Origin: Bryum argenteum
Taxonomy: Eukaryota > Streptophyta > Bryopsida > Bryales > Bryaceae
Assembly (NCBI GenBank): GCA_037043015.1
Contig: CM073329.1
Location: 4,356,648 to 4,420,647 of the forward strand
DNA length: 64,000 bases
Direction of reading: 5' to 3'
In this document: piece after piece, positions 7,244-40,579 of the stretch
Layout of the letters: each line of letters starts with the position of its first letter
Numbering within the stretch: position 1 is the stretch's first letter
Translations under genes and position numbers: made by a program
Notes under the pieces: model-generated
Database searches by the model: none
What the model was told of the DNA's origin: nothing
What the model saw: only the letters and a program-made list of their open reading frames with translations

Positions 7244-7614
7244 ACAACTTGATTGTATCCACTTATCAGTGACTTGCTTCGAGCTGCTGGGGTCCGCCAA
7301 CAAACACGAGAACCCATCGCATGCACTTGCGTCGGCTCGAAGGTAACCGCGTGATGGTAAGTTGCAACATAAACCCCTTGCGTCCTTCACTTCGAGGCTA
7401 TACTGAAATTCTCGATGCCGTTTGGACTTCTGCAATAAAACTACACAGCAGCCTTCGCTACTTGAAAACTAGTACGACATAGTTACTCCCGTACGCACTG
7501 TGTACCGACAAGCTAGAGGAGGATTGTTGCACTAAATTGTGAATTGTAGGTGGAGATTTTGTGAGCAGCTGGTCCGGTTTGATCTGCTAGTCGATCAGGC
7601 TCTCCGAATTGGTC

Positions 7615-13653: not shown

Positions 13654-13658
13654 GTTTT
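13654..13658. repeat. Target-site duplication of the Copia element, left copy
   Basis: GTTTT, repeated directly at 33537-33541 beside the other LTR. Confidence 0.85.
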
Positions 13659-13987
13659 TGTGAGAAATAGCTACAAAGCAGCAGATCGTATGCAAGATAC
13701 GAATAGACAAATGGGAAAGCGCTCTGAGAAATGTGCTACAGCACAATGTATTATTGAAAAGAAATCAAAGACCACTACACAATGGAAGGAAGTTATTCAC
13801 TGTGCTTACACTTCACACCGCTTAAGCGCAGCTGTGAAAGACAACACCAGCGCACTACAAACACTCCTACGGAAACATCTGTGCAAGGTAAGAACTATCA
13901 ATGTACAGCAAGCTTATGTACGGTGGTGGAACGTGGTGGAACGGACAGAAGTCCTCGATCTTCATATTAAACGAAATTCATCCAACA
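13659..13987 (-). repeat. 3' LTR of the Copia element
   Basis: 329 bp, TGTGAGAAATAG... to ...TTCATCCAACA on the plus strand, about 99% identical to 33204-33536. Homology stops sharply at both ends. Confidence 0.95.
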
Positions 13988-14099
13988 CTTCCACTCGAGT
14001 ATATGAAGATTTGAACGAAACGGAACTTGATTAGTCTCTCCCACTCGTTGAGTTTGAATTCAAAAACTTTCCCGCGCACGCTTTGTTGAAGTCGAAAAT

Positions 14100-17000
14100 C
14101 ATCCCTTAACGTACGGTGGAGTTTCGGTAAGTCCAAGAAGAGACACAGATGAAGAGAAAGCTTCCCGTGGCACAACTTTAGTAAAGACATCGGCGAGTTG
14201 ATTTTTCGTATTGACATACTGGATGTCCATTTGTCGCTTATTAAACTTCTCCCGAATAAAGTAATACTTGCGCTCAATATGTTTCGTCTTCTTGTGGTAA
14301 CGCGGATTCTTCACAAGATGAATAGCACCCTGGTTATCTGAATAGAGGATCGTAGGAGCATCTTGAGGAATGCCAAGGCTTCTGAGGAGATTAGCGAGCC
14401 ATAGCGTATCTTTCAAAGCCTCAGCAATAGCGACAAACTCAGCCTCGACAGTCGATTCAGCTGTGCACACCCCTGCCTTTTGCTCGTCCAATCTATAGCT
14501 CCATTGCTTAGAATCATGACGTAGCCGGTTCTTGACTTCCTGTCGTCTTGGTCATTTGAGAAGTCGGCGTCGCAATATTCATGAAGAGTCAAATGGTTTA
14601 TCGAACCATGATAGAGAATTCCGAAATTAGTTGTGCCTTTGAGATAACGCAAAATCCGTTTGGCAGCTATCCAATGCCGATGTCTCGGCCGGTCGGTGTC
14701 ATGGTTGTCATATTGGACAGATTACTATTCATTTCATGTCCTATAGGACGAGTTACCATTTATCAAATGTACCTTTCAAGTACATGTGATGAATAGTAAC
14801 TCGTCCTGTAGGACATGAAATGAATAGTAATTTGTCTGATATGGCAACCATGGTCGGTGTATGTTGTAACTCGACTAACAGCGTAGCAGATATCAAATCT
14901 TGTAAGAACCATTGCGTACATAATCGATCCAATTATCGCTTTGAAGGGTATCTCAGGGCTCAAGGGTTCATCTTCCGGGTCGTCCCAAATAGGAGAATGT
15001 GGATCCGCCGGTGTAGAAACAGGATTCGCATCTGCCATATTGAAGCGTTTCACAATATCATCAATATACTTAGATTGGTGTATGAAAATAGAACCTGTGA
15101 AAGGATCTCGTTGAATTTGAAATCCAACGTAGTACTCCGCGTTACTCCGCACGACTTTGAATTCTGATTCGAGGTGCTTGATGATAATGTCGAGTACAGT
15201 AGGATCCGTAGAACATGCCATGCCATCGTCTACAAAGATACCAACAATCGTATCTATCTCCCGGGTCGAATTAACTCGGTAGTAAACGAAGGAGTCATAA
15301 TCGCTTGGTGTAAGATCATGTCGCTTAAGAAAATCGTCGAATTTCAAATTCCACTGCCCTCCAGACTGCTTGAGTCCATACAGACTCTTGTGAAGTCGAC
15401 AAACATAACCTTGGTGATTGACATCCTCGTATCCTTCAGGTTGCTTCATGAAAATATCTTCAGCTAGGTCACCATTGAGGTAAGCGGTACCAATGTCAAA
15501 TTGCATCAATTGCATCTGGCGAGCCGCTGCTACAGCAAAAATGGTACGAATAGAAGCATGTTTGATTACGGGGCTATATGTTTCCTCATAATCAATACCA
15601 GCAACTTGGCTATAGCCTTTCGCCACAAGTCGAGCCTTGTATTTGTCAATCTCTCCAGAAGCCCGATACTTCAACTTATACACCCACTTGTTCGAGATGA
15701 TCTTCCTACCCGGAGGAGGTTCAACAAGAGTCCACGTTCGGTTATCAATGAGCGATTGGTATTCTTTGTTCATGGCATCCTGCCAAGAAGAAACATCCGG
15801 TGACTTTAAGGCTGCCTTGTAGGTTTGTGGCTCCCTGTATGTACTAGCTGAGTCAACCAAAGCTGCATGGGAACGTCTAGTATGACTGAGCTCCTCATCT
15901 GATAAGTTTCCTTCAGCAGCATAGATCTCCGGTATTGAGCGAAGTTTAGGTATATTCGGTGAGGAATCATAGTAAGGAGAAAAATTCGATGAAGGTTGAC
16001 TGCTCAAAACCTGAGGTGAAGACTGACGTTGATCGGTAACCATTGGAGAAAGCTCTCAGTGGAAGAGAAACTGAAGAGTTTTCCTCCATAATGTGAGTGT
16101 CAGCCGTAGGCAAGTTATCTCCCACTGAAGAGTTACGCATGATGGAACAAGGATTGTCTAGCGATTTGGAGAGAGAGCCTTCCATATCTTGTGAACAAGG
16201 TCTTGTGGAATTTTCACTCGTGTCGGAATTCGGAATATACGCTTCAAAGTCCGGAAAGATATTGTACGGAAGGTCACTGATTGTAGAATGTTCACCTAGA
16301 AACAGTGTTGAACAATAGTTCAAGGTCTTGTCAAAGATAACGTCCGAACGCTCGAAAACCTTAACGGTGTTTGGTTTCCAAAACCTCCACGCTTTGCTCA
16401 CGTTGCTGTAGCCGATAAAAACAACACGATCACCATGAGCCTCGAACTTAGTACGAGACCGCTTGTCAAGAAAGATGTATGCTATCGTTCCAAAAACACG
16501 GTAATGACTGATGGCAGGCTTCCTGTGGTTCCATAATTCGTACGGTGTTCTGATCCCAACTTGTGTGTTTATTGCTCGATTGAGAAGATACACCGCTGTA
16601 CTCATGGCTTCTGCCCAAAGCTTCAAAGGAACGCTGGTAGTATGTAGCATACTACACGCTGACTCTACAATGGTCCGGTTATCTCGTTCGACATATCCAT
16701 TTTGTTGAGGTGTGTAAACTACACTCAGCTCTCGGATAATTCCTTCTTTCTCTAGAAAAGTGTTGAACTCAGTATTATAGAACTCCGTTCCTTGATCCGT
16801 ATGTAGAAACTTGACATCATTGCCGATTTGTCGGGTGATAAGCCGAAGAGCTTGGATGACGTAAGAAAGAGTTTCCGATTTCTTTTTGAGAACATACATG
16901 AAACGGTATGAGGTACAATCATCTTTGAGAAGAAGATAGTACACAGCACCACCGAGTGATGGTTTGGAAATCTTTCCACTCAAATCCGCGTGAAGACGCT

Positions 17001-17611
17001 CGCCTGGTATCTGTGAGCGTTGTTTATCCGGAACAACTGAGTATGAAGCCTTGTGTTGTTTTCCATAAACGCACCCTGAACATACATGGAGAAGCTTCGC
17101 CGATGGAGCAAGAGAAAAATTCTCCAGACTCGAATGAGTGCTCATTTTCTTCATAGTGTCAACGTTGATGTGTCCCATTCGACGATGCCATAAACTCGGA
17201 TCCGTAACGAGTCGCGAGGTGTGTTGAGAGCTTGGGTTTACGTGAGAGACGCAACAACCACGGTGGAAGAGGATAGAAAGATAACTCATACAATGTGCCA
17301 ACTCGCACTCCTTCCATTATCTTTGGTCCTTTACCAAAATTTCGATATAGTGCGCACGTCCCACCGAGAGTGACAAAAGATATGCCGGATAAAGAAGCCA
17401 ATCCGACAGAGAAGAGGTTTCGTCGAAGATCTGGGATGTACAGAACTTTTCGGAGCGTGCCATGTTGCTGAGAACCATCAACCGTAAGCATAATATTGAT
17501 ATCACCCGTTCCTAGAACCCAAACGTCTCGATCATCGGCCACAGCAACAGACCATTTGCCAGGATCAACTAGAGTAAAGTTTGAAAACCAATCTCTATGT
17601 TCAGTCATATG
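14100..17611 (-). pseudogene. Copia pol remains: protease end, integrase, reverse transcriptase, RNase H
   Basis: Read on the minus strand. The tail of the protease region is followed by the GAG-pre-integrase and integrase region (about 16100-17400), with HRRMGHIN, a catalytic-type LHTDQGTEF and NGYVERDNRT. Reverse transcriptase (about 14860-16000) shows WVYKLKYRASGEIDKYKARLV-type motifs and the FVDDG catalytic core. RNase H (about 14110-14690) shows the SDNQGAIHL motif. These are Copia-family signatures. The region is broken as noted for the whole element, and a MITE sits between reverse transcriptase and RNase H. Confidence 0.9.
14700..14852. mobile_element. 153-bp palindromic MITE with 8-bp target duplication (hAT- or P-like)
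   Basis: The ends CATGGTTGTCATAT and ATATGGCAACCATG are inverted repeats that extend over most of the element. The 8-bp direct repeat GTCGGTGT flanks it (14692-14699 and 14853-14860). An 8-bp duplication fits hAT or P transposases. Its tips resemble those of the 340-bp element at 56759-57098 (CAAGGTTGTCATA). Confidence 0.85.
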
Positions 17612-17615
17612 CTCA
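17612..17615. repeat. Target-site duplication of the 14.5-kb transposon, left copy
   Basis: CTCA, repeated directly at 32130-32133 on the far side of the insert. Both lie in the Copia protease region. Confidence 0.85.
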
Positions 17616-17639
17616 GGGTGAAAGCACACTAGACCCATG
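17616..17639 (+). repeat. Left terminal inverted repeat of the 14.5-kb transposon
   Basis: Begins GGGTGAAAGCACACTAGACC. It pairs with the reverse complement of 32106-32129 with two mismatches at positions 12-13. Confidence 0.93.
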
Positions 17640-18998
17640 TACTTTGGGCGTCACAAACACAAATTCTGGAAGGTCTCAACTTTGTACTTCAGTTTTGCAT
17701 ATGTAAAACTTATATTTTTTGATATGTTTTGCATGATTTGGGTGACATAATGCTTGAGGATGATTTTCCAACAACCAAAGTCTAAAAATTCCTTAGATTT
17801 CTATGTGTACTTAGTAGATTTGTCATTTTGTTCCTGGGGTCACAATGAAATTAAGAATGCAAATGTACTCACCACGGGCTTGTTAGAACATTAAAGTTGT
17901 CAACTGTACTTGTTTTGAAAGCATAATATGAAGCTCTTTTAGATACTTGAAGTTGATATAGAGTGGAGAGCCTTAATATTTGTGGTTTTGCAGTTTAAGA
18001 CCAAAATTCTTCATCAAAGCATAAATGCCTCAAATTTTAACATTTTTTGGTTTTTTAAAGTGGAATCCTGAGTACCGGAATGAGTTCTTCTTTGGAACCA
18101 TGTCAAAATTCAGAAAAAACCATCGTAATGGCAATTCCAGTTTTTGCCGTTCTTGGGCATGAAAAGTACTGTTGTGTTCACTCAGACTCAGTACATCATG
18201 TACACTATTTTGATGACGTGGCAAACTGCCGTCCGAGTTGTGCAGTAAAGGCGCCCGTCAAGCCGTCACCTGCCACCAAGTCAGGGGCGGCGACCTCTGA
18301 CGTAATATTGAATTTGGCGGTTATCTTCTCCAATCCAATGTACGCATGTTTGCTTCGAATTCGTGTTCTACGTTGTCACGGAAAAATTTCTTGTGCACGC
18401 ATGTTCTCGTTCATGGAGTCGGAGCAAAACATTTGCATGCTTGTACCGATAAGTCCTAGGTAGATTGTCTATCTTCAACGTCGAATACTGTTAGTTGGCC
18501 ATCAGTTATCTACTTTTCTGCGCTTCTTTTACGTTTAGGTTGGATCCAGGGCTGACAGGCCAAAGGCACCCACGTCTTCGGAGGGACAATCGCACGCAGA
18601 CTTGGCTATGGCTGTAATGAAGTGAAGGGACGATCGATCGACGTGTAAGCTGGTGAGGCGCGTTGCAAGAAAGCCAGGATTCACGAAGCTGACGTGATTG
18701 ATGCCGCGCATATTGGGGCCGACCTTTGCCTGTGTCATAATAAGGAGGAGGTCTACCTTCGAAGTGAGCGTGCACTTCGGCTGTTGCGCTGTGCTGTCGT
18801 AGCAAGGCTCAGCTGAGTTTGGTTCGGCCGAAAGTGACCCGCAGCCAGGTCTTTGGCTCTTTGCGCTGCCAATCTCGCGGTCAGCAGTCGATGTGCCCCT
18901 GCCCTTCCGTTTCGCTCGGCTCTGCACTCTCGGTAGTCACACAGTTCACGCAGGCTACTTCTAAACCCATCCATTCTGAAATTTGCTTACGTTTTGTA
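17640..18998. other. Left subterminal region and 5' flank of the transposase gene
   Basis: No gene is supported before the transposase. The last part (18931-18985) is a copy of an internal piece of the transposase coding region (see 21747-21802). Confidence 0.5.
18931..18985 (+). repeat. 55-bp duplicated piece of the transposase gene
   Basis: Closely matches 21747-21802, including a perfect AGGCTACTTCTAAACCCATC core, and translates in the same frame (ATSKPIH in both). It lies just 5' of the transposase start codon. Confidence 0.75.
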
Positions 18999-21900
18999 AT
19001 GGGTGATATTGCAAAGAGACGCCGCGTGCGTGAGGGAGTGTCTCGTCCAGGTCCCGCCCAAAGACTTGCAGAATGTGCAGAACGTGAGGCGCGTAGAGTA
19101 GAAGTTGCTGAAGCAGCTCGAGAGAGGAAGCGTAAACAGAGGTTGCGTGATAAGGAGAGAAAAGAGTTCCTTACTGATTCACCAGAACATGCTGCGATTT
19201 CACCCCTCTCTGTAAGAAACTCATATAGGATTGCAAAGAGCGTTTCCAATGCGATTGTAGACCTTCTTAGTGCATGTCCTGATCTCATTAGCAAGAAACA
19301 AGTTATGGAAAGGGTCTTGGATCACCAGCTAGTTTCCGGATTTTTGCCTGATTGTTACCACCCTCCTCAGGAAGCACGTGCTAGGGATGCGTTCATAGAG
19401 AGCTTTAGGCATGAGTTTTCAATCGTGAAAGTTGCAAACTCCCATGATCTACTAGCTAGAAAATCAGCGTTGTTAGATGCAGCTGTGAGTAGTGGTTTTT
19501 CAGGAGTTGCTGCTTTGTCCAAAGTAGTAGGATCTACTCGAGAAAGTATTTCTATTGCTTACAAGAGAAGGATTCAAGAAGTCGTAAAGGACGGTTCAGT
19601 TCCATCAATTCCAAAGTTACGTTTGTGTAGGCTAAAAAGAGAAGGCATCTCTGACTATGTTAAAGATTGTGTAGTGGCTTGGTGGACATTGCAAACCAAG
19701 GTTTCTCCTAACAAGAAGGATGTTGTGAGACACAGAGTAGGAAGGAACGACTGGCTTCCCCCGCACCCTACTCACTATCTCTGTGAGACCCAGGTATTTC
19801 GACTTAAACTTGTTGCAAGTGTATTTGGCGTTTACTGCAAGGTTTGCCTGCAAATGTCGATTTGAAGGAAGTAGGGTTTATGTGAGTTTTACGTTTATGT
19901 AAGTTTCTGTTTTGAGGTTTCATTCAATAACTCGGAAGTATAGTAACTACTTGTGCTATGTACGAGTTCATATTAGTATGAAGTTTTCACACTCTTGTAG
20001 TATCTATGCGTTACTTAGTGTGTACTTGCCTAGTAATTCAGTATTGTGTCCTCATACTTCATTACCGTCTCGTGAACTTTCGATGTGAATCTCTGCACTA
20101 CAGTGATTTACATCAGTACTTTTGTTTTGAAGCACTGGCCTAAATGTCCTTTATATCATGTTTTAGTACATGTTGTAGTTGGAGTTCATCGTTATATACA
20201 CTTAGGTGTCATCTGACCTATGAATTTGTACATTTGTAGTTTTATCAGTAGTGTTGCTGTGAACTATAAGAAAGAGTACAGTTTGTGTAAGGGTTTTGTA
20301 CAGTTTGTAGTGGATGAACTACAGTCTGTAGATGATTGACTACATTCAATAGCAATGCAGTGAGTCTTGTACTTGGTGTCTTAGTTCTTGTAGCTCATGA
20401 GGTACTTCTTGTAGTTCATGGATAGATATTGTATAGAAGTAGGTACTCTTGTTGTGAACATTGTTGTTGTGTACGTGAGGTTTGTGTTTATTAATGTGTA
20501 TACATGTAATCAGTAATTACTTTCATTGCATGTTGGATGTAGGCGAGGTAAAGGTGCCCTGATCAGTGTGTACTTTGTCTTGTACTTTTGCAGACATCAT
20601 TTTTTCAGCGGTTTATGGAGGCACATCCGGAATGTAAAATTAGGTTAAGAGCTTTTGAGAAATTGAAACCATGGTGGGTGAAGAAGTTGAAAGAGCGGAA
20701 CACGTGCTGCTGTATCTACCACGTGGAAATGGACATGATGAAGATTGGTTTGACCAATCTTAGAGATAAGTTGAGGGGATTCCATTCTACAACAAATTGT
20801 GCTTGTAGTTGTTTGGTATGTGCAGGGCAAGAGCATGACGATGGTTGTCAAGCACATGATCGAGTGTACAAGCATATTACTCTTATGTGGGAAAGTTGTA
20901 TGTGCCCGAAAGGAGAATTTGATAGGTTCCACAAATTAGATTGTCTAGTGGGTCTGTGTCCCGATTGTGGTTTTCGTAACTTTGATATTTGTCCTCGTGA
21001 AGTAACTGATGAATCGTTCTTATTGAAGTAGAAATGTTTTGAGTATTACATAGTTGGAAACCATGGTGAAACAGGTCAACCAAAGAAACGCCTTCGAGAG
21101 GCGTTTAGGGAGACTCCAGTCCTAGATTTTTTGGCTTACATGGAGAAGACGGTGACTAAATTCATTGGTCACAATTTCAGAGCTAGGTGGCAAGATGAGC
21201 AGTGCCGGATAATGACGAAGAACATACCTGAAGGAGTACTTGTTTCTCATATTGATTACGCTAAGAATTATACATTTGCTATTCAGAATGAAGTACAGAG
21301 TATGTATTACTTCAGTACATCTGTGACTATTCTTGTGCACATTTCGATGTTCAGAGAAGGTGACGTTGTACATAAGAGTACACACTACTACATTTCTGAC
21401 GACAAATGTCACGATTCTGCATTTGTTCAACATTGTTTACTGAAACATTGGAAGTGGGCTGAAAGTTTAGGTGTTCCATTCCAAGAGCATTGGGTGTTTT
21501 CAGATGGGTGCAGTTCGCAATTCAAGTGTGCCACGGCGATGTATTTTGTGGCGAGGTTCCCTTATTTAACTGGGGGTTGTTTGATGCGATGGAATTACTT
21601 CGAATCCGCTCACGGGAAGGGCGAGTGGGATGGTGCAGGTGCTGTCGTTAAAAGGGCACTACGGCAAGAACAGATTCAAAATCCTGGGAGGCCTCTCCAG
21701 AATGCAGCCCAAGTTGTGGAATTCCTTAGAGAAAATTACTCTAACCGTGTAGTCACACACTACACGTAGGCTACTTCTAAACCCATCCATCGTGAATTTT
21801 GGCATGTTGAATCAAATGAAGTCAATCATGCGGACAATACTGCGAAATGTCGAACACTCTTGGGATCTAAGAGTTTGTATTCCATCATGGGTTTCTCAAT

Positions 21901-22501
21901 GACTGATCCAACTCTACTGAAAACTCGTGAGTTATCATGTTTCTGTGTTTCGTGTGTAGATTGTGCTTGGAATAACTGTGAGAACAAGTCCCATGTGAAG
22001 GAGTGGAAAGTAGAACGTCTGAACCCCTTTATTGCAGGGACACTACCTATACAAGTTGCACACGATGATGATGAAGTTAACTGGCAGAATGATGGGTTGT
22101 GTGAAGACCAGGGTTCCTTGCTGAGTGTTGGGGACAATTTCATGGTGCCTGCTGAAGTGGACAACGATGAAGGTGTCGATTACCACATCCTGCAATGTCA
22201 CCGTGAGAAGCATGTCTTGGAGGAAGATCATACTTGCCCGTGGGGAAACGTTTTCAGTGCGGGAGATGAAGTCGTGGTTGGGAAGTACTACAAGAAACGC
22301 GGAACAAGTGATAAGACGTATGTGCTTTGTAATAAAGCCGTTGTTGCAACCCTGGATGCCAATCTGGTAAGGGTTATTAAATTCCCTATCATACTTGCAT
22401 CTTACAGAAGTAAGGGATCACCACTGTATCAAATAACAGCCGACGCGAAAAGGCTATGTGAGAACGCGATGAGCGACTGGTGGGCCTTTAATTCGGTATG
22501 A
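18999..22501 (+). pseudogene. DDE-like transposase gene of the 14.5-kb element, two in-frame stops
   Basis: Exon 1 (18999-19793) and exon 2 (20594-22501) share one frame, with a CAG|GTATTT donor and a TTTTGCAG acceptor. The N-terminus is Arg/Glu-rich and probably coiled (RLAECAEREARRVEVAE). A Cys-rich middle (CCCIYH, CACSCLVC, CMCPKGEF, CPDCG) suggests zinc binding. An RNase H-like core follows with SHIDYAKNY, FSDGCSSQFK and HGKGEWDG, giving candidate acidic residues near 486, 569 and 609-611. The C-terminus is a small basic domain. Related proteins with DxAENY and SDG..QF motifs occur as multicopy genes in animals. I cannot name the superfamily with certainty, and Sola is the best guess. TAG stops at 21029-21031 (where a Trp is expected) and 21767-21769 (the duplicate at 18931 keeps CAG) interrupt this copy, so it is probably dead. 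Confidence 0.8.
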
Positions 22502-22507
22502 ATCATG

Positions 22508-22567
22508 GAGTATAAGTTTGTACATTCAGTATAAGTTTGTACATTCAGTATAAGTTTGTACATTGAG
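22508..22567 (+). repeat. Triple 19-bp tandem repeat
   Basis: AGTATAAGTTTGTACATTC occurs three times just after the transposase stop codon, between the two convergent genes. It may contain polyadenylation signals for either gene. Confidence 0.7.
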
Positions 22568-22762
22568 TACATTATGTTTATGTTATGTTCAGTTGATGCA
22601 TTAAGAAATTTTATGGAAAGTAATTCAAGTTTCGATATAATGTACTGAGAAGGTTAATCAACTATAGAAGAGTAAAAGTCATCTACCTAATTGTATATTT
22701 AGTATGCATGTGAATGGTGTATACTAGATATACAACATGTAGTTCTTAGTGACTAGTACTTG

Positions 22763-23880
22763 TCACGGACCCCTGCAAGACGGACTTTTGCACTTGCAAC
22801 CGAATGTAGGCACGTCTGGGTCATGTGTTAAAAAGTCGGTTTTATAGTCCCACGTGAGTTCTTCATTGGGCTCAATTTCACGTAGGGTAAAAAAGGCAAT
22901 CCGGTAGAAGCTCCTATCACTTCTCCCTACCAACACTGGGATGTCAATCAAATTTGCATCTTCACACCTGTGCACACATTGAATTTGTACAATATCTATT
23001 AGTTGTGGTGGTAGAAATACTCACCATAGTGCAAAACAATGAATCCAAAATAACACATGGGCACAGCATGGAGCCTTACCGGTGGTTTACGAACCTCGCT
23101 ACATTTCCAAACCTAGTTGCATCCAGACATAAGGCAGAGTTGTCATCCGCACTTGTCTCCAATATCCAATCAGCATCACAGTGTACACTGTAACCCGAGA
23201 CCCCACCATTTTCCTCGTTTCTCTCCATCTGCTCGGCATTTGTCAATATCTCCCCAGTCATTTCAAATACAAATGCAGCCTTCGGAATGCGGTCCCTTGC
23301 TCGAACACCCCACCCTTTCTCGTCAGTAAGGAATACCTCCACTCGATATGTCATCCCTCGTTGCACAATTCGATTTCCACACATCTTATGACACCCGCAC
23401 TTGATATTACACTCAGCTATAAACATCGGGCGCACAACGGAGTCACACAGCAAACCCGTCCCAAAATGGGCCTTGTTGAAACAGTAGCACTCCTCGGATC
23501 CATCGGGCTTTCGCTCCTTCTGTTTGGCCTTGAGAAATGAATTGCGGAGTATTCCTCCGTGAGTGTAAGCAAACCGGCCACTTGGGTCTGAGGTCGCACA
23601 CTCAAAATAAAACTTCATGAGGCAATCTCCCTCAGGAGGGCACTTACAGTATGCACCCTCGTCAATCTCAGAAAGCACCTCGTTCACCTTAGCGTCTTTG
23701 TGTACTACGCTTGTAGTTACATATTGGAATACGGGAAATGGAGTATACGAAACCACAACGGGAATTGGGAAATTCTCAAGTCCTCGGAAATGTCTTCAAT
23801 CATGTATTTGGGTGGTCCGGATCTATTTCCTATTGTTCTGACCCACACACGACAACATGAGATCCCCCTCAAACCCAATC
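22763..23880 (-). pseudogene. SUVR-type SET-domain histone-lysine methyltransferase, partial, one frameshift
   Basis: Encodes pre-SET, SET and post-SET in the order of plant SUVR1/2/4 proteins, which methylate histone H3 lysine 9. Exons seen: 23080 to about 23880 and 22763-22967, joined across CG|GTAAGG and GCACAG|G. The pre-SET cysteines include CKCPPEGDC, CGCHKMC and C-rich segments between. The SET core has KGWGV, RFVNHRCEDANL (AdoMet and lysine-channel motif) and ELTWDY. The post-SET reads CKCKSPSC. All catalytic motifs are present. The 5' part (about 23780-23880, PPKYMIEDISEDL) is one base out of frame with the rest: a single base seems missing near 23775-23782. No N-terminal SUVR exons or clear start were found, so the gene is shorter than the usual 490-720 residues. 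It lies inside the 14.5-kb transposon, tail to tail with the transposase gene. Activity is unknown. Confidence 0.82.
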
Positions 23881-24179
23881 ATCTCGCATTTACCAAGACA
23901 AGTCAAATATACGAGAAAATAATGCATTCTTAGATATGAACTTGGTGTACGATGAAGTGTCCATATTGTACAAAGTGCATCGCCCACAGTGTACCAAATG
24001 ATTACATACAATATGGACACTTTCATCACAAAGATGGACACTTATGTTCGCCAAGAATTGGCCGCGGACTACAAGTACCGAAAATGAAGGCAATACCGTG
24101 CTCTGACTCCAATAGTAGTGAAGAGAACTCAAAGAGAAAACGAGCTCTTAATTCAGTTGGAACCCATTACATCCATGGA

Positions 24180-24335
24180 CACACTTAATATGGCCCATGT
24201 CACAACTACGCAATTCAAAAACCTCTGGCATGTGTACACGCCAGAAAAAACATGGACACACTGAATGTCTCCCATGTCACAACTACGCAATTCAAAAACC
24301 TCTAGCATGTGTACACGCCAGAAAAAATGGATCTC
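24180..24335. repeat. 77-bp tandem duplication
   Basis: Two copies of CATGTCACAACTACGCAATT... at 24196 and 24273, between the SET gene and the RING-like gene. Noncoding as far as can be seen. Confidence 0.8.
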
Positions 24336-24410
24336 CTCAACGCTCATCGAAATCTAACACCTAGGTCGAGTGCACATAGTGGATAGTGCACACACAAACT
24401 TCTAAATATG

Positions 24411-27400
24411 CTAACTCTTTGACTTCCTTGTACTACGACCACGACTCGTATTGGCGCCTTTGGATTTGACAGTAGGAATTACCTTGCGCTTCTTCTTATG
24501 ATATTTTTGTTTCGGTGAAGGTGATTCTGAATTGCCTCCACCTTCGTTGTTCACCTTCCTACGACCTCGCTTATTTGGCCCTGAGGATGGTGACTCGCAT
24601 CTCCTAGAATCCGGCCCAGCCGAAGTTGCTAAATCAGAAAGGGACTTGTAATTTTGGCCCACCGAATGTAGGTTCTCCACCGCTATGTCCTCGTCACACT
24701 CCAACATCGGGTCATCAGGGATTGACTTCCCCTTTCCGCCACTCAGCTCTGTCTCCTTCTTGCGCGGCACAACGACGAAATTTTCCGCTGCATTCGCCAT
24801 CACTTGATCCATTCTGACCTCCTCGGGCTCCACTCCTTGAGGTACCGGGGTTTGCACTTCGGGTTCATCAGCCTCAGGTACCGCGGTTTCCACTCCGGGT
24901 TCATCAGCCACCGCAGCCACAGTGTTGTTTTGCAACAACGACTTCTCTAACACTCTTGGCTTCCCTAAACTCCAAATCCAAGATTAAGTCAATACATTAC
25001 AACATGCACGAAAGCTACAAGGCAATTTTGGTTTGAATTTGTACTTGCGGTTTTGGGTGAGGCTTCATTTCGGCATGCTCGAGGAGAAGATTTCCGCTGC
25101 CCTAGAGGGTTTGTAGCTGCTCCGGTTTTACTTGGGCTAATGGCTGCAATCGCATGCACCACAACTCCGGGCTTTGGGGCTGACCGGGGCTGCACCTCAG
25201 GGTTCGGGGTCGGGGCTGACGGGGGCTGCACCTCAGCGTTCGGGGTCGGGGCCTGACGGGGGCTGCACCTCAGGGTTCGGGGTCGGGGCTGACGGGGGCT
25301 GCACCTCAGTCCTTGGTGCTTGGACGGTGGCTGCAGGGGTTGTCTGAGACTTCGGTGCAAAGAAGAGGTTCGCGCCGCCACGCGCGGGGTTCGGGGTTGG
25401 GGATGACCGGGGCTGCTCCGAAGTCGTGGGTGCTTCGACGATGGCTGTAGGGGATTTACGGCAATTTGCTGGAGCAAGAGGTTGCGCTTCTCCCAGGGCG
25501 GATTTGAGGTGCACAAGTACTCCGGGTTGTACATTGGTGACGGCGGGGACGTCATCCTCCTCTGCGTCAGACTCCTCCTCTTCACCGGATCCCGCTTCTT
25601 CCTCACAGCCCCCCTCTTCTTCGTCTGATTCCTCCCCTTCTTTGTCAGACTCCTCACCCTTGCTTGCTTTAACCTCGTTCCCTTGGACGGTGGTGGGTGT
25701 GGGCTCTGCCTCCTCAGAATTGCCCTGCTCTACACCGCTACTCGGTGCAGGACCATCTAGCGACTTGTGCTCGAAGGGCTCAGGGCTTTGAGCAATTGCA
25801 GCGTCGCCCTCGTCAGAGTCGATACTGTCTCCCGAGGTGGATGGCAATTCACGAGGCATCTCCGGATCTGGCGCGTCATCATCTGAATCCTCGTCCTCGT
25901 CACTACCTAAAATGGGCTCTTCTCCTACCGGCTTCTTCAAAGACTCTGGCTGTAAGCATTCGAAGACGGCAGGCTCCACTCTCTTGCGCTTGTCTACACT
26001 CGAGGACGGCAAAGCAGCAATTGCAAGAGTTGTGTCGGATTGCTTGACTGCAGTCAGTGTAGTAGCAGGTGCGGGAAGCGTGGAATTCAGGACATCTGAA
26101 ACACACAACAACCATTACAATGTACACAAATTAGGTCCAAAATGTATGCGGATGTACTGAAGCAGTTTGCAAAGTGAAGGTAAGATTGCTCAGAAGTACC
26201 TCTTACGCCTATTCAGTACTACTGGAATTGACCGATTCGTATCCTGCAAAGGAGTATTACTATAATTGATGTAGCTAATATACACTTTTGTATTGTTAGT
26301 AGTAGCCATTGCACACTCTGTAGTGTACAGAACGTAAGTACCCATTGCACACTCTGTAGTTCAACGAGACGAGAAAATGACACTAGTACAACTTCTCTCC
26401 TTCTTGTAGAGCTGGCTACTACACAATAGAAGTACTGGACCACAAATTACAAACACTATGTACCTGTAGTACCTATATTTTACTTATCATGTTGTATGTT
26501 GTATACTTATAGTAGCAAACCAGTGTAGAACAAGTAGACGGGTAATATGCCATTGTACACACCCGGATACTCAGGTACACTATAATCCGTGAACTACTAG
26601 TTTTACAGTTATCCTCGTACACACTCCGACGTTAGCTAAGTACTCAACTCGTAAAATGTGCATGCTACACGATAACAATACTACTGAACTGCTTAGTGAC
26701 CGCCATGCATGTCGTGGACAAGACTACTCTTGTAGTGGCAAGAGTAGAATTCATCTGTACTTCTAGTACAAAACCGGCAGCACATAGACATCAGTAGGCT
26801 AAAATTGCAGCATGTATCCTAACTACGCAATTACTAACTTGCAATGAGCTTGAAGTGCACACACCTTCATGTATTGTGAATGAAAAGTACATTCACACAC
26901 AGTAAATGGAGAATGTGCATGAAGATTATTTTGATGTAATCCATGATAAAGTAGCACAATCTCACCAGAATTGAGAGGCAGGAACGTTCTTGCTCGATTC
27001 GCCCTTGCATGAAGAACCTTCCCTCGCTCCTCAGCTAATCCCAGGGCTATCGAACGCTCCTTCACCTGGGCGCTTGGCTCACCCCAACTGAAACTCCTAA
27101 ACCAATTTGGGTGGGGCAACTCGCCACATCCATCTGCCTTACATTTATGTCCATTTCCAAAAACCATCCAAGCACAATACGGATGGTATGCATGTCTACA
27201 GCTAGAAAGGACAACGTCTAAATCAGGAAAAGGAAACAAACAGAAACTACAAGTCCTGAAATCGATTGTCAGCTCCGAGGAATTGTCGTCTTTGTACACC
27301 ATGGGCATCGGCCACACCGTTGAGTTGGTCTTCCCTCTCTTGATCTGAAACACCTCGTTTGTCATTGAATCGAATTGCCTCTCCCGAGCTGCACTCAACA

Positions 27401-28617
27401 ACCGGACCTCCTCAAGCTCAAGGTCCACGAGACTCAATTCAGCCCTCTCCTTGCAAGTTTTTTTCTGTGCCCTTGCCAATTGTTCTTGAGAGCCCTCCAA
27501 CTTGATCACCTCCTTGTGTGTATCTGCCCCCGTCGCCTTCAACCGGTCAATTTCCTCCTTTCTTTCTTCAACGTCCTCCTTGAAATTCTCTACCAAGTCC
27601 TGCAGCCGATCGAGTCTCTTCTTCACACCTTCTCTTCTCTCAGTGATCTCAGCCCTCCTGTGCTGCAAACCCTTGCATTCGAGGTGAACAACTTCGAGCA
27701 ACCACTGCAAATCAGCAACCCTCTCTCCGCTTGCATCCTTCTTCCAACCTTGCAGATCACCCTCCTGATAAAGGGAGGCTCCCTGCACACAAACGGCGGA
27801 CCCTAGCCCGCTCTCCGTTTTGCATTCGAACCAGCCTCCTTCCGTTTCGCCGTACTGCGAAATGACGATTACTTCGCAATCGGTCTCCTTCCCCTTCTTG
27901 CGAGGGTATGTCACCTTCCTGTCGATCGATCCCTTCAAAGGCTGCACAACCAAACTTCGCCATTCTTGGCCACGAACGTCGTGCTCGAGTTTCCGCTCCA
28001 CTACCGACCGCAATGCCTGCAGCTTCGCCAGGTCGTCGAAGTAGCGCTTTCGCTGCCGCTCGTTCGTCAATTCACCGAACTCACACCAGTTGACTTGACC
28101 CTCCTTCTCCATATCACGCACCACTCCCTCGGCGAACTTGACCTTGGTCTGCGCTGGAATTTTCTGATTGGGGCAAGAGTACACAATGGGGTGTAGGTAC
28201 TTCACCCTCGCAATCACGTCCTTGTTGGTGCAGCTGCTCCACACGAAGCCGTTCCGTCCGCAATCGCCAATTCGCTGGCCAAAGAGTTTCTTCATCTTGT
28301 CATAGTGGAAGTCCTTCGGCGCTAGTTTGTGAGGATTCACTCCTGTGTCGCTCAACTCCGGCCACTCCCTCTTAAAATCAGCAGCTGTCATCTTCTCCGG
28401 TGGCGGCTTCAAACGTCGGATCTCGGCGTCAACATCCTGCAGGGAGGTGTAAACCTTCTCTGGCTTAGTTGATCTCCTCACATATGGCCGCTTGGATTTT
28501 GCTGCGACCTCCTCCGCTCTATCCGAATCGCTCTCCTCTACTTCATCACGGACTTGAGCAAAGAATACGGCGATCGGAAGTAGTCGCCTTCCGCTTAGTC
28601 GCCCCTGCCCCTGCCAT
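24411..28617 (-). CDS. RING-like, coiled-coil nuclear protein (transposon cargo), two frame breaks
   Basis: Three exons: 26966-28617, 25045-26095 and 24411-24964. Both introns have good borders (CTG|GTGAG...TTTCAG and GCAA|GTACAA...TTTAG) and phases fit. The first exon encodes a conserved N-terminal region, then a long coiled coil (about 27430-27740), then a zinc finger of RING type (CSFC...CRHAYHPYC...CKADGC). The second exon is acidic and Pro-rich with EVQPPSAPTPNP repeats. The third ends in a basic tail with KKKRKV, like a classical nuclear localisation signal. The ATG at 28617 is one base out of frame with the long exon, and one extra base occurs in the repeat at about 25252. These may be real lesions or sequencing indels. 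The role is unknown; an E3 ligase or chromatin scaffold is possible. It is divergent from the transposase and upstream of the SET gene on the same strand. Confidence 0.75.
26112..26820. other. GTAC-rich intron of the RING-like gene
   Basis: Intron of 870 bp (26096-26965) with unusually frequent GTAC tetramers (AGTACC, GTACAC, CAGTACT and others). The same enrichment is seen in the transposase intron at 19860-20590. No coding sequence is seen. Confidence 0.55.
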
Positions 28618-28759
28618 CTGCAAACGCAAAAGCAAACCCGACAAACGATCCGACCAAACCCTAACAATTGAGCACAACGAAATGGAGACAACGATCACAA
28701 ACTAACTACAGCGGTGAACTCCAGCGGCTCACCCTACACCTAAAAGCCCCCTCTCTAAA

Positions 28760-28947
28760 CTCACACACTCACGGCGCCAAAGGCTTTCCTCGCTCTACGT
28801 GCGATCGCAGTTCTAAACTACATCAATCAGAACTCTCTCAACGAAACTCAAAAACTGAAACTCAAAAACTCAAAAACGAAACTCAACTCCAGTCTCCAAA
28901 ACTCTCCCTATCGACACTGTGCAACTAAGCTCACACACTCACGGCGC
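28760..28947. repeat. Direct repeat in the 5' flank of the RING-like gene
   Basis: CTCACACACTCACGGCGC occurs at 28760-28777 and 28930-28947, 170 bp apart, in the G+C-richer region before the gene. It may be a duplicated promoter element. Confidence 0.6.
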
Positions 28948-29297
28948 AATGGTGAGAACGCTCTCAATCAGCTACGTACGCGATCAACAAACGGCGGCGG
29001 GGAAGAGAAAATCGATGCGCGGCGGCGGGAAAGCAAGCTGCGGAAACCAAACAATGACCAGCGCGCTCTCCCTCTCTCGCCAAACAAACATCGCTCAACT
29101 GCGAGACGATGACCGGTGGTCACCGATCGTCCATGTTCGGGACCGGTGATCACGGTTTCAGCGAGAACACGTTCCAAATGAAGACCGGCTATCAACGGTG
29201 CTTGATTTATTGTAATCTTCACCCACTCAATTGCAAATCCAATGAAATTAATACATGCAACCCTAGTATGTCAAATCCTAAATGTTCATCATTGTAG

Positions 29298-29480
29298 TAT
29301 GAATTTACCTAATTTTGTACCCATTAATCCTAGTTATGAATTTACCTAATTTTGTACCCATTAATCCTAGTTATGAATTTACCTAATTTTGTACCCCGTA
29401 ATACTAGTTATGAATTTACCTAATTTTGTATTCCGTAATACTAGTTATGAATTTACCTAATTTTATACCTATTTTAGTAT
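29298..29480. repeat. 37-bp minisatellite, five units
   Basis: Units starting TATGAATTTACCTAATTTTG begin at 29299, 29335, 29372, 29409 and 29446, so the period is 36-37 bp. It lies in the noncoding right arm of the 14.5-kb transposon. Confidence 0.92.
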
Positions 29481-29499
29481 ACAATAAACATATAAATAC

Positions 29500-29925
29500 T
29501 TTTAGTGTAATCGCACATTTACTGATTAAACACTATTATTTCTTAATGTAGATTTGTTAATAAAGAAGATCAGGTCTGGCACATTTACTATTTACACACT
29601 ATTATTTCTTAATTTAGATTTGTGCGTAAAGAAGATTACGAGTGGCACATTTACTATTTAAACACTATTATTTCTTAATATAGATTTGTTAGTAAAGAAA
29701 ATCAAGTGTGGCACATTTACTATGATTTGAACACTATTATTTCTCAATTTAGATTTGTCCTTAAAGAAGATCAAGTGTGGCACATTTACTATGATTTGAA
29801 CACTATTATTTCTCAATTTAGATTTGTCCTTAAAGAAGATCAAGTGTGGCACATTTACTATAATTTGAACACTATTATTTCTTATTTTAGATTTGTTAGT
29901 AAAGAAGATCAAGTGTGACTAGTGA
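29500..29925. repeat. 66-69-bp minisatellite, about six units
   Basis: Units with AAGAAGATCAAGTGTGGCAC repeat at 29569, about 29635, 29701, 29770, 29839 and 29908. The central period is exactly 69 bp, a multiple of three, which explains long but meaningless open frames on both strands. Confidence 0.92.
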
Positions 29926-30330
29926 GATTTTTAGTCTAACTCGTGAACTTCTATGGTAGTTTGATGTTCAAGTACGTTTCTATGATTTATTCTCTGAATT
30001 CATTCTTATAAGTATTGTAATTTCATTCAAATTGCATACAACAAATATGTGATTCCCACATCTCCAAAATTTAGTATTCAATTAATGCACCAAGATTGAA
30101 CACATACACTATCATGTATTTTCTAAATAAACTGAAATTTTGAGATAATTTTATTCTTTATATCCATATGGAAAAGTCTAGATAGTACAACTTTTCAATA
30201 AATATTTGGGTTTACATCAAAACATGTCTACACTCTACACTTACTAAGTATGATATATAATATTTAGTCTTCAATAATTACTCATTATTGGATTCCTAAA
30301 CTTGCACATCACTACATGAATTTTGGTTTG

Positions 30331-31813
30331 AAATACATATTTGATATCTACATAAAATTATGTATGATGTCAATAAAGTAGATATAAAACCAGATGTCCA
30401 CGTTCATTTCTTGAAACCGCCAGATATATCATATCCAATAATATAAAATAGAATACAGTACTACACTTTTGATAAGATATTATATTTGTACGAGGGTTAT
30501 TCAACATGAGTCATATATAAACCCTACTTATAACAATTGTATAAATTAATGCATAAATATGCCTTTATACTTCCAATTTGGCTAAAATTCCCAAACCATC
30601 ACCTCATCATTCATGATTCATCTTAACCCCTACACTATGAATTTCTAGAGTAGTCTAAAGAATGGCCATTATAAGTATTGTAAAAAAAAAAATTAAAAAT
30701 GACATTAAACAATAGCCACACAATTATTACATATGCATTGTTCAAAATTTATGTATGATCAAAATCCACATTCTAAGCTCATGTTATGAATGCAAACAAT
30801 GAATATTCAATTATTCAAATGCCTTCTTAGAGTAGATGTATGTGTTCTATGTAATCCTTCCTACAATTTAGGTATGAGAATAAGTGATCATAAATATTCA
30901 TCCTTCATTCATCCATATTAATCTTATACATCCAGGGAGATGAAGAGTTTTACATATGCAAACAATTCACATGCATTTTTGAAAGGAGGTTCATTCTCTA
31001 GGCACGTGGCAGAAAAAAGTGTTTCATCATCATCTGTATTATGTATAAATTGAGTGTTTGTTCATAGCTTTCAAGACCTTATATTTGCTACCTAAAAGTC
31101 CCTATATACTAGGTAATTAGGGTTTTGGAATACATATTTATTATTTAGATAAAATTATGAATAATGTAGCTAATAAAGTAGATATAAAAACATCCACGCT
31201 CATTTCAAACCTCCAAATATATCATATCCAATAATATAAAATAGAATACAATACTCAATTTTTGATAAGATATTAAAATTGTATGAGGGTTATTCAACAT
31301 GAGTCATATCTAAACCCTAATTATAACAAATGTACTAAAATTAATGCATGAACATGCCCTTATACTTCCAATTTCGCTACAATTCCCATACCATGACCTC
31401 CTCATTCATGATTCATCTTAACCCCTACACTATGAATTACTAGAGTAGTCTAAAGAATGGCCATTATAAGTATTGTAGAAAAATAATTAAAAATGACATT
31501 AAACAATAGCCACAAAATTATTACATATGCATGGTTCAAAATTTATATATGATTAAAATCCACATTCTAAGCCCATGTTATGAATGCAAACAATGAACAT
31601 TCAATTATTCAAATGCCTTTTTAGAGTAAATGTATGTGTTTCGTGTATTCCTTCCTACAAATTATGTATGAGAATAAGTGATCATAAATATTCATCCTTC
31701 ATTCATCCATATTAATCTTATGCATCGTAGAAAAGCATAGGTTTATCTATGCAAACAATTCATATGCATTCTTGAAAGGATGAAGTTCATTCTCTAGTCA
31801 CGTGGCTAAAAAG
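30331..31813. repeat. Large tandem duplication, about 685-bp units
   Basis: 30331-31015 and 31128-31813 are clearly homologous throughout, from AATACATATTT to TCATTCTCTAG.CACGTGGC, with many small differences. They are separated by about 110 bp. AT-rich and noncoding, in the right arm of the 14.5-kb transposon. Confidence 0.85.
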
Positions 31814-32105
31814 GTCCATTGGATCCATTCCTCTCTTCAACTTGCCACCAAGACATTCCTTTCTTTAATGTCCAAATTTAATACTTGACAGGGAATCTTC
31901 TCCAAATTGATTTGCAACTTTGCACAATGTCAGACTACGTGGCGCACTAAGAGTGGATCACCCCAACACAATCAATCGGGACCCTTCAAATTCGGGAGCA
32001 TTTATTGCCCTAACTGACGCAGTGCAGTACTCCCGCATGTGTACTCCAGAGACAGACAATGACAGAAATGTACTAAAGTGTACTGGACGGATCTGCAAAA
32101 AACTG

Positions 32106-32129
32106 CATGGGTCTAGCATGCTTTCACCC
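32106..32129 (-). repeat. Right terminal inverted repeat of the 14.5-kb transposon
   Basis: On the minus strand it reads GGGTGAAAGCATGCTAGACC and onward, matching the left end at 22 of 24 positions. Followed by the CTCA duplication at 32130-32133. Confidence 0.93.
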
Positions 32130-32133
32130 CTCA

Positions 32134-33162
32134 GTCGCACCAGTGTCCGCATACCACGTCCGTAAGTCAAGATTGACACTAAGTGCTTGAGAGTGTCGAC
32201 TGATTGTCATGAACGCGTAAGAATCACTCTCAGCGGAGTTGCAATCAGAATCATGATTAGAGTTGCATGATAAAGGCTGACTCGTAGCAGTATTTGCATC
32301 ACTCTGTTTTCGATTGTTAGAATTTCTAGAAGACTTCTCAGATCTCTTAGAATCAGACCGAGGCGGTTCCGGACATTCATCTCGCCAATGACGTGGTTTC
32401 CCACAATTGTAGCACAAGGAATTTTCCTTGAGTAGCCGGAGATGCTCCTTGTTACGCTCCTTCTCCTCTGAACGTTCCTTAATATGCTCTGGACGTTGAT
32501 ACTTTGAAGCGGATGAACTCGAGTTACGATTCGTACGAGAGAAAAAAGCTTTGTCCATCACACTCTCGACATTTCCATTCTGTAGCGATATAATGTTCTC
32601 CATCTGAAGAAGCCTCGTCTTAAGATTCTTAACAGTACGATCAGCATCGGCAAGATTCGTCCATGCCGCAATAATGCCGTTGTAACTCGGCGGGAGACTA
32701 GAGAATGTTTTGGAAATGAGCATGTCTTCTGCAACGGGCTTCCCGAGATCTTTAAGAAGATTTCCAAGAGCTAACACCTTGTTAACTAACATGTGTGTTC
32801 ATGCGATCTCCTTGTACCATCTTGTAATCGAAGAAACTCGCCTCGACGGAGTAAATATTTTCCTGCGACTTCTGTTGATAGAATGAACAAAGAGTCGACC
32901 ACATGCATGCAGCTGTAGTGCAGTTTACCAGGTTCTCGAGAACAGGGAGAGTAACAGCGGAACTGATCATTCGCCGAGCCATCGAGTTCTTTTTGTTCCA
33001 TAATTCGCGAAGTTCCTCCGGCTCGCTGAGAGAAGGCGCTATCGAAAATCCGTTGATAACGTCCAGAACCATCTTCTCCTCAAAGCAAATCTCCATGTGG
33101 AACTTCCATACAGCAAACTTCGTACCATCGAAAACCTTCAAAGAATCGTCAAGTCGCTCCAT
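32134..33162 (-). pseudogene. Copia gag and start of protease
   Basis: Minus-strand gag of the Copia element. It begins with a UBN2/gag-type region (MERLDDSLKVFDGTKFAVWK), then a CCHC zinc knuckle (CYNCGKPRHWRDEC), then the protease motif WYADTGAT at the point where the 14.5-kb transposon entered. Broken as part of the dead element. Confidence 0.9.
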
Positions 33163-33192
33163 TTTCTTCTATTGTCTATAGCGAAGAGATAA

Positions 33193-33203
33193 GGCCCATA
33201 ACC
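33193..33203 (-). other. Primer-binding site, initiator tRNA-Met anticodon region
   Basis: Directly inside the 5' LTR the plus strand reads GGCCCATAACC, identical to the anticodon-loop region of plant initiator tRNA-Met. Some Copia elements are primed by a half-tRNA cut in the anticodon loop, so this suggests half-tRNA priming instead of use of the tRNA 3' end. Confidence 0.75.
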
Positions 33204-33536
33204 TGTGAGAAATAGCTACAAAGCAGCAGATCGTATGCAAGATACGAATAGACAAATGGGAAAGCGCTCTGAGAAATGTGCTACAGCACAATGTATTATT
33301 GAAAAGAAATCAAAGACCACTACACAATGGAAGGAAGCTATTCACTGTGCTTACACTTCACACCGCTTAAGCGCAGAGCTCTGTGAAAGACAACACCAGC
33401 GCACTACAAACACTCCTACGGAAACATCTGTGCAAGGTAAGAACTATCAATGTATAGCAAGCTTATGTACGGTGGTGGAACGTGGTGGAACGGACAGAAG
33501 TCATCGATCTTCATATTAAACAAAATTCATCCAACA
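33204..33536 (-). repeat. 5' LTR of the Copia element
   Basis: 333 bp, TG...CA, about 99% identical to 13659-13987. Flanked outside by GTTTT (33537-33541). Confidence 0.95.
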
Positions 33537-33541
33537 GTTTT

Positions 33542-38600: not shown

Positions 38601-38840
38601 CTCTGTTTTACTCAGTTTGAAACAATTAAGCTGAAGTTCAGGTTCTGCAATTAAAGCAGAAAGAGAGCAGCCTTCAGTTGCCACTTATGCTGCCGATTGT
38701 ATCAGGACTTGTATCCCGTGGTTACGTACTAGTTAAGTACCGACAAGGTGTGGAATACTGATCAGGTTGTGAGTTGTAATTGCAGAGTTCGGAATGGTGT
38801 AATTCCTTGTCGAGGAGTTCGATCTGCTAGTGGATCAGTC

Positions 38841-40579
38841 ATGGGGGCGATGAACAGGGTCTCCGATTTTGTCATGAAGTGTGTGTTGGCTCTGGTGCTC
38901 GTGTCTATGACGCTAGTCGTCATCGACGCTCAAGCCATAGGGGGACCCGTTCCCGCCGCCAACCTGCCGTATCAGTGCAACAGCCAGGAGAGATGTTGTA
39001 TGCCGACGCCGTACCAGGGGAAGGAGATTTATCAGTTCGAGTACGAGCCCAACCTGCCCATGAAGACTCGGCGACCTGCTCACCTTCTCGATGCGGAGTT
39101 CATCAAAAAGCTCGAGAAGGGGTACAAGATACTCCGGGAGCTTCCCGACAGCGACCCACGGTCGCTGCTGAACCAGATGAAGCTGCACTGCCTCTACTGC
39201 GACCACTCGTTGTACTTCCCCGGAGTGGAGTACCCGCTTGCCATTCACAACGGCTGGCTGTTCGTTCCGTGGCATCGCATGTTCCTGTACTTTCATGAGC
39301 GCATTCTTCAGAAAGTTCTGAACGACGACACGTTCGCGCTCCCCTACTGGGCATGGGACAACTCCATGAACGTGACGCCTGCGGCCAATATGATGCCGGC
39401 CATGTATGCCAATTCTTCGTCTCCCTTGTGGAACCAAAACCGCAACAACTGCTCATATCCGCCCTACGTGGTGGACATGGACACGAATGGCGGCTGTCCC
39501 CTGCCCTTCAAGACGTCGGACTACCTCCGAGTTCAGAACGATCGAATCATGTACACGCAGCTGGTGTTAGGCGCTCCTACGACCTCTCTGTTCTATGGCA
39601 TGCCATATAAATTTGGCGACTTCGGAGGCATGGGCCAGGGTACCCTCGAGGACATGCCTCACGGCACAATTCATCTGTGGGTGGGCAACAAGTACCCTGA
39701 CAAAAACTCTACTTTCCACCCTTTCGACGATATGGGCAATTTTGGGCGCGCTGCTTACGATCCCATCTTCTATGCTCACCATAGTAATATGGACCGCCTG
39801 TGGAATGTGTGGCTGGAGCTTCCTGGTCGTGCACGAGACTACCCCGACGACCCTGCCTTCATGGATTCAGCATTCACATTCTACGACCAGGACGCTAATC
39901 TTGTGAAGGCCAACGTTTCGCAGTTTCTTGACATCGACAAGCTAAGGTCCGCAATTCTCGATCGCTGTCGATGTACTGCCTAAGCATAATTATGAAATTG
40001 TGATCGAGTTGTTTACATATTGTTGATGTGCGCAGGTATAACTATGAGAAATTGCCGACGCCGTGGGTGACGAACGGGGTGCTCAAGGGCGAGGAGAATT
40101 CGATTGCGCGCTGCAACCCGCTTTCCAAGACAGCAGTAGAGACTTTGATCAGCCAGACACCGAAGCACAAGAAGTCGCTGGTGGTTTCTTCAAAGCCGGT
40201 CACATACAAGGTGAAACGCGGTACCCACAAGAAGAAGGGAACAGAGGTCCTTGAGTTTTCGGGATTGCACATTCCAGACGCTTTTCTGCAAGTGCATTGG
40301 AAGATATATCTCTTCTACCCTGGAGCGAATTTGACCAACAGCTCGCCGATGTGCCCCGAGTTTGCGGGCACCTGGAACTACGTTCCCGTTGTTGGGCAGC
40401 CTACATTCAATCCCAAGAGAGTGTGGAGAGTGGCCATTGGACCCAAATTGCAGCAACTTGGCTTGGACTACGTGGACAGCATCGTCGTCACCACTGTGCC
40501 TCTTGGAGATTACTATCAGAATGTCACTATCGACAAAGTCAAGGTCATGTACGACAGAAGTCCCGAGGTGTCAATTTAG
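38841..40579 (+). CDS. PPO: Secreted polyphenol oxidase, gene 2
   Basis: Paralogue of gene 1 with the same two-exon plan: exons 38841-39946 and 40036-40579, an 89-bp intron in the same codon, 549 residues. Two starts are possible: ATG 38841, or ATG 38874, which aligns with gene 1 and places the hydrophobic signal segment at the very N-terminus. The second is more likely used. Numbered from 38841, copper site A is His116, His136 and His145 with thioether Cys120; site B has HGTIH and FYAHHSNMDRLW. Potential N-glycosylation motifs occur (NSS, NCS, NVS). The C-terminal shielding domain is complete. The donor GTCCGC is weaker than in gene 1, and read-through would add a short tail and stop. Copies 31 kb apart and in the same orientation imply an old tandem pair later pushed apart by mobile DNA. 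Confidence 0.94.

Follow-up and report, generated by a model that had tools for sequence, protein, structure and literature searches.

A 14.5-kb cut-and-paste DNA transposon of the moss Bryum argenteum with a SUVR4-like SET gene recurring beside its transposase

The analysed window, a 64,000-bp stretch of the Bryum argenteum genome (assembly GCA_037043015.1, contig CM073329.1, positions 4,356,648 to 4,420,647), contains a 14,514-bp insert (17616-32129) within a Copia retrotransposon. The insert is bounded by 24-bp terminal inverted repeats (TIRs), GGGTGAAAGCACACTAGACCCATG on the left (17616-17639, + strand) and, read as the reverse complement, GGGTGAAAGCATGCTAGACCCATG on the right (32106-32129, - strand), which agree at 22 of 24 positions and give the element GGG...CCC ends; the left 24-mer had no further match elsewhere in the window with up to 7 mismatches allowed. 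Comparison of the flanks revealed a CTCA target-site duplication (17612-17615 and 32130-32133), and fusing the flanks with a single CTCA made the protease frame of the Copia element continuous again across the DTG motif (...WYADTGATEHMTEH...). The host Copia element (13654-33541, - strand) contains an RVT_2 domain in its open reading frame, is flanked by its own 5-bp duplication, GTTTT, and has long terminal repeats (LTRs) of about 330 bp (13659-13987 and 33204-33536) with 4 mismatches and a single 4-base gap between them. Since the LTRs are nearly identical and the Copia element keeps its own duplication, the insertion is recent and the host element is young. The cut-and-paste DNA transposon in the window is complete and precisely bounded on either side, and it contains genes for a transposase, a SUVR4-like SET-domain protein and a RING-like coiled-coil protein, together with a third gene of low complexity. 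An earlier note on this DNA, made from the window alone, had recognized the transposon, its boundaries and the young Copia host, and all three are borne out.

The host assembly (258.8 Mb, 25 contigs) was searched with the 24-mer end at up to 3 mismatches, as the earlier note had proposed, giving 26 matches compared with 0 for the reversed control. Nineteen of the 26 were exact, 16 of them forming eight convergent pairs with ends 14.1-92.7 kb apart and three being single ends. The 4-bp flanks were identical in all eight pairs and the 5-bp flanks in none, and the eight duplications were all different (CTCA, ACCT, GTTT, TTAT, TTCA, TCGA, ATAT and CATT). A chance inverted repeat is excluded by the empty control together with the eight duplications, and the possibility that the ends are part of a larger conserved segment is excluded since flanks and duplications differ among copies; the earlier note had named this last outcome, and the absence of other copies, as grounds for giving up its proposal. 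Of the eight copies, the seven that were read from end to end could be aligned over the whole element. Identity in the long blocks was mostly 92-98%, with 88% in one block of 3.2 kb and 83% in one of 0.7 kb; the copies of 20, 25 and 43 kb contained additional sequence. The transposase, SET, third and RING-like genes all lay between the TIRs in these seven copies, which excludes a host gene cluster misread as a transposon. The 92.7-kb pair, known from its ends and match positions, also enclosed matches to the four genes in the usual order. A decayed 812-bp derivative at C4:485188 lacks the genes but retains an end on each side, with 1 and 7 mismatches, and its flanks were identical at 3 of 4 bases. 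A degenerate end pattern matched 61 times genome-wide, compared with 10 control matches, and yielded no additional clear pair of ends. Diverged ends of related families (about 70-82% identity over about 180-460 bp) were observed at C10:13394280, C10:6911260, C10:13552882, C3:8276159 and C2:18611914 (G000), the last with RING-like sequence 1.9 kb inward.

The transposase gene lies on the + strand. Its inferred exon 1 (18999-19793) falls within an open frame at 18768-19865, with a donor GT after 19793, and this 365-aa frame is preserved in two further copies; exon 2, the catalytic core (20594-22501), follows an inferred acceptor AG before 20594 and in the window copy is interrupted by two in-frame stops (21029-21031 and 21767-21769). 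A 53-bp stretch of the core (21749-21801) recurs close to the beginning of the exon-1 frame (18933-18985), with about 89-96% identity in the element copies. The core is of the DDD type, with an RNase H fold in the predicted structure. The transposase had no relative among Pfam or NCBIfam families, and its sole named relative, in a protein search needing shared 5-residue words, was one liverwort protein. Foldseek comparison of the model with the PDB or with viral models returned nothing at E <= 0.001; in the structure comparison Argonaute-type RNase H folds ranked just behind integrases, so that the fold alone cannot name the transposase family. A scan of viral contigs confirmed 0 of 12 pattern matches, and a prokaryote genome scan returned one fragment, in a cyanobacterial bin. 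This fragment (L057 4696-5362, 30% identity), on a contig filed as uncultured Trichormus with reverse-transcriptase-like frames upstream, may be host-plant DNA, perhaps from a fern, within the bin.

Several known superfamilies could be set aside. Harbinger elements generate 3-bp duplications. They are excluded here by the 4-bp duplications and by the lack of a match to any Pfam transposase family. The GGG...CCC ends exclude Ginger, which has 5'-TG...CA-3' ends (PMC10741241), and likewise the CMCT group including Lanisha and EnSpm/CACTA, with mostly 5'-CA..TG-3' ends (PMC12730594). A review describes Sola elements as having 4-bp duplications, DDD transposases and TIRs of 11-1124 bp, being present in Physcomitrella and sometimes exceeding 15 kb (PMC10741241). 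The window family has the 4-bp duplication in all eight two-ended copies, 24-bp TIRs matching at 22 positions and a DDD/RNase H transposase, so that membership in Sola is plausible by these described traits. An element of a new superfamily, separate from Sola, is a lesser though appreciable possibility: the transposase without Pfam or NCBIfam relatives, its single named liverwort relative and the empty Foldseek result speak for it, whereas the 4-bp duplication and DDD core suit Sola, reported from a moss (PMC10741241), and the 5-residue-word search would overlook distant Sola proteins. The earlier note had offered Sola or a new superfamily; the traits of the former fit by description, and the latter is the less probable of the two. 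Its emphasis on unusual length is weakened by the long Sola elements of the review, so that the length is no novelty; all the described traits together make Sola a good fit.

The SUVR4-like gene is convergent with the transposase. Exon a (23080-23795, - strand) encodes the pre-SET and most of the SET domain, and exon b (22763-22967, - strand) the end of SET and the post-SET; they are joined by a phase-2 GT-AG intron (22968-23079), and in the window copy the start region of exon a is out of frame relative to two other copies. PF05033 (pre-SET) and PF00856 (SET) scored above cut-off, no NCBIfam family matched, and the spliced protein matched EHMT1 at 5.5e-34 with the NHxC, ELTWDY and post-SET cysteines aligned and the catalytic motifs retained. 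By this domain composition (pre-SET, SET and post-SET) it is a predicted protein of the H3K9-methyltransferase type, SUVR4-like. Among the matches listed (best 120 of 197), the closest relatives were unnamed sequences at 52-69% identity, and the best named ones were plant SUVR4 proteins at about 39-45%.

When the host genome was searched with SUVR4 of Selaginella (P0131), the highest identities (56% and 65%) fell on the two exons of a probable host SUVR gene (C2:7.294 Mb), which had no transposase nearby among the matches listed. The intron of this gene and that of the transposon SET gene agree in position and phase, both splitting the NHR/C codons. In a tree of 37 sequences, the window SET protein and 19 unnamed relatives formed a separate clade (100/100), while the probable host SUVR protein, whose row fills 49% of columns, grouped with 16 plant SUVR proteins; the tree without the host gene had an identical split. 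The 19 unnamed and 16 plant rows were hand-picked from the best 120 of 197 matches, with one near-duplicate row omitted, and the 19 clade members are presumed to be transposon-borne. The element gene thus resembles plant SUVR4 in its domains and intron position but differs in being mobile, multicopy and in a clade of its own. Given the shared intron and the separate clade, the SET gene probably derives from one old capture of a SUVR4-type gene. Repeated capture by separate elements is very improbable: SET-carrying transposons did arise elsewhere in more than one lineage (PMC12730594), yet the window SET and its 19 relatives, the latter only presumed transposon-borne, fall into a single 100/100 clade, and the gene keeps its place and orientation beside the transposase.

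The RING-like gene (26823-28694, - strand) has a 623-aa open frame whose product combines a coiled coil with an eight-ligand zinc motif. All eight C/H ligands are invariant in five of five aligned rows, with an unusual C-x4-C end. NCBIfam returned weak coiled-coil matches alone, and the structure model was poor (mean pLDDT 45). Four homologs, all unnamed, were found among the 7,998 scored candidates sharing the most words, which makes the gene appear restricted to these elements. The third gene region (24411-26114, - strand) comprises low-complexity acidic and basic frames and is nearly confined to the window family.

The earlier note had overlooked this cargo, in which SUVR4-like SET and RING-like genes recur beside the transposase genome-wide. 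For the transposase and SET searches of the genome, the best 150 of 153 matches each were used (from 429 and 280 candidates, respectively), and the linkage counts refer to these listed matches. A SET match lay within 6 kb of 95 of the 150 transposase matches, in all 95 cases downstream and on the opposite strand, compared with a mean of 0.25 and a maximum of 3 in 200 trials of random placement; from the other side, 101 of 150 SET matches lay at most 6 kb downstream of a transposase match. Among 61 merged RING-like genes, 35 were within 15 kb of a listed transposase match, 34 of them downstream and on the opposite strand (maximum of 2 in 300 random trials). In both random placements, the sizes used for C6 and C11 were guesses. 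Since identity among the listed transposase matches goes down to 41%, the arrangement is old within the host genome. The rank correlation of 22 identity pairs, several of them loosely paired, gave no support for co-divergence (rho 0.34, p 0.12).

Between the window family and its sibling at C3:6.66 Mb, dN/dS was 0.125 for the transposase core and 0.23-0.28 for SET exon a in three comparisons, indicating that both genes were constrained while the families diverged. Within the family, pN/pS was 0.30-0.31 for SET and 0.32 for the RING-like gene, and two non-coding controls, one of them the stretch 30330-31499, gave 0.53 and 0.69. Transposase and SET were thus under purifying selection as the families separated, single copies decaying afterwards. 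The ratios also bear on the possibility that the SUVR gene was acquired accidentally from the host by one ancestral element and is carried unused by the descendants. Gene capture by DNA transposons is common, and many SET copies in the genome contain stops. Nevertheless, the between-family dN/dS of SET, its fixed position and orientation in every one of the linked pairs listed and its retained catalytic motifs all argue against unused cargo, which we consider improbable.

We favor, at a probability of roughly 60%, a land-plant family of cut-and-paste transposons whose standard gene set would join a Sola-like DDD transposase with a SET protein of SUVR4 type (the H3K9-methyltransferase type) and a RING-like coiled-coil protein. 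Several results weigh against it. The window copy itself is broken; pN/pS within the family was 0.45-0.50 for the transposase, hardly below the lower control, and 0.68-0.93 for the third gene, indicating no constraint on the latter. No SET match stood within 6 kb of 55 of the 150 listed transposase matches, 49 of 150 listed SET matches were without a transposase among the matches listed, and 26 of 61 RING-like genes had no listed transposase within 15 kb; the unlinked transposase and SET matches may reflect real loss, or partners beyond the matches listed. TIRs are defined for the window family only, and in other families SET was seen beside the transposase, not between TIRs. Furthermore, the N-terminal WIYLD ubiquitin-binding domain of SUVR4 was not found in the element frames scanned, and zf-RING and other RING families matched the RING-like protein below cut-off only.

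The recurrence of the transposase/SET pairing at many related loci suggests that the element manipulates host chromatin. A chromatin role of some kind is rather likely. In the proposed mechanism, the transposase would bind the GGGTGAAAGC ends, excise the element and insert it at a staggered 4-bp cut, and the SET protein would methylate H3K9 on chromatin of the element or of its target. This methylation could set the silencing, expression or placement of a copy, and the RING-like protein may assist, perhaps as a ubiquitin ligase. As to direction, we lean slightly, and speculatively, towards an element that relieves its silencing by the host, since H3K9me3 is among the marks that SUVR4 of Arabidopsis can make (PMC7218100) and has been called permissive in that plant (PMC13017857); the first source, a review, has SUVR4 depositing H3K9me2/me3 under the influence of ubiquitin, and two of its passages disagree on direction (PMC7218100). 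It is rather unlikely that the transposon lineage makes its own chromatin state, with the SUVR4-derived enzyme and a transposon-specific RING-like helper turning H3K9me1/me2 silencing at the element into permissive H3K9me3; if true, this would make histone methylation a standard step of the transposon life cycle. Self-restraint or aiming, by which the SET protein would add silencing H3K9 methylation to the element's own copies or guide insertion to heterochromatin and so limit damage to the host, is possible but doubtful: H3K9 methylation silences transposons in plants (PMC7218100) and the window copy is inserted in another transposon, but a single copy within Copia makes no trend.

Compared with known systems, the family shares with Sola the 4-bp duplications, the DDD transposase, TIRs within 11-1124 bp, occurrence in a moss and lengths that sometimes exceed 15 kb, while the available Sola description mentions neither a SET nor a RING-like gene (PMC10741241). 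HarbingerS and the SET-carrying MuDR transposons of Phytophthora (Kojima and Jurka 2014, as cited in PMC12730594) are likewise DNA transposons with a gene for a SET-domain histone methyltransferase, which in the window family lies between the TIRs in the seven copies read from end to end. They differ in having Harbinger and MuDR transposases and oomycete hosts, and the accessible passages mention no RING-like partner; the likeness is at the level of having a SET domain (PMC12730594). VANDAL MuDR elements with VANC are also plant DNA transposons with a gene acting on their own silencing, but VANC is a sequence-specific anti-silencing protein and not a methyltransferase, and the transposase is unrelated (PMC10398659, PMC12730594). 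Fungal DNA transposons with a TET/JBP dioxygenase also recurrently encode an enzyme that modifies chromatin or DNA, but the enzyme is a DNA dioxygenase, the hosts are fungi and several other transposon lineages are involved (PMC12730594). SET genes in transposons are thus already known, and the apparent novelty is the SUVR-plus-RING cassette, not the element length; a literature search of partial coverage, which says little, found no plant or Sola-like transposon in which a SUVR-type SET gene is combined with a RING-like one. Transposons are normally targets of H3K9 methylation. A lineage in which purifying selection maintains a SUVR4-type gene next to the transposase, at scores of loci, would offer a natural setting in which to study whether histone methylation lets selfish DNA escape, modulate or direct its own silencing. 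The ends and the target duplication are defined and there are sibling loci whose frames are open, which makes this question testable.

Other features of the window are more peripheral. Within the right end of the element, a direct repeat (30411-31726; 30411-30932 and 31204-31726, 90-94% identical in pieces) has a spacing of about 794 bp and recurs in other copies, and two tandem arrays (29298-29917) have units of 37 bp (29298-29473) and 69 bp (29513-29917). A weak Transposase_21 match at 49245-49916 (+ strand; E 0.002, below cut-off) is perhaps the remnant of a second, CACTA-type DNA transposon. The Copia element with its insert is flanked by two polyphenol oxidase genes (7591-8715 and 38733-40579, both + strand) with Tyrosinase and PPO1 domains, which are about 86-87% identical in 300-base stretches.

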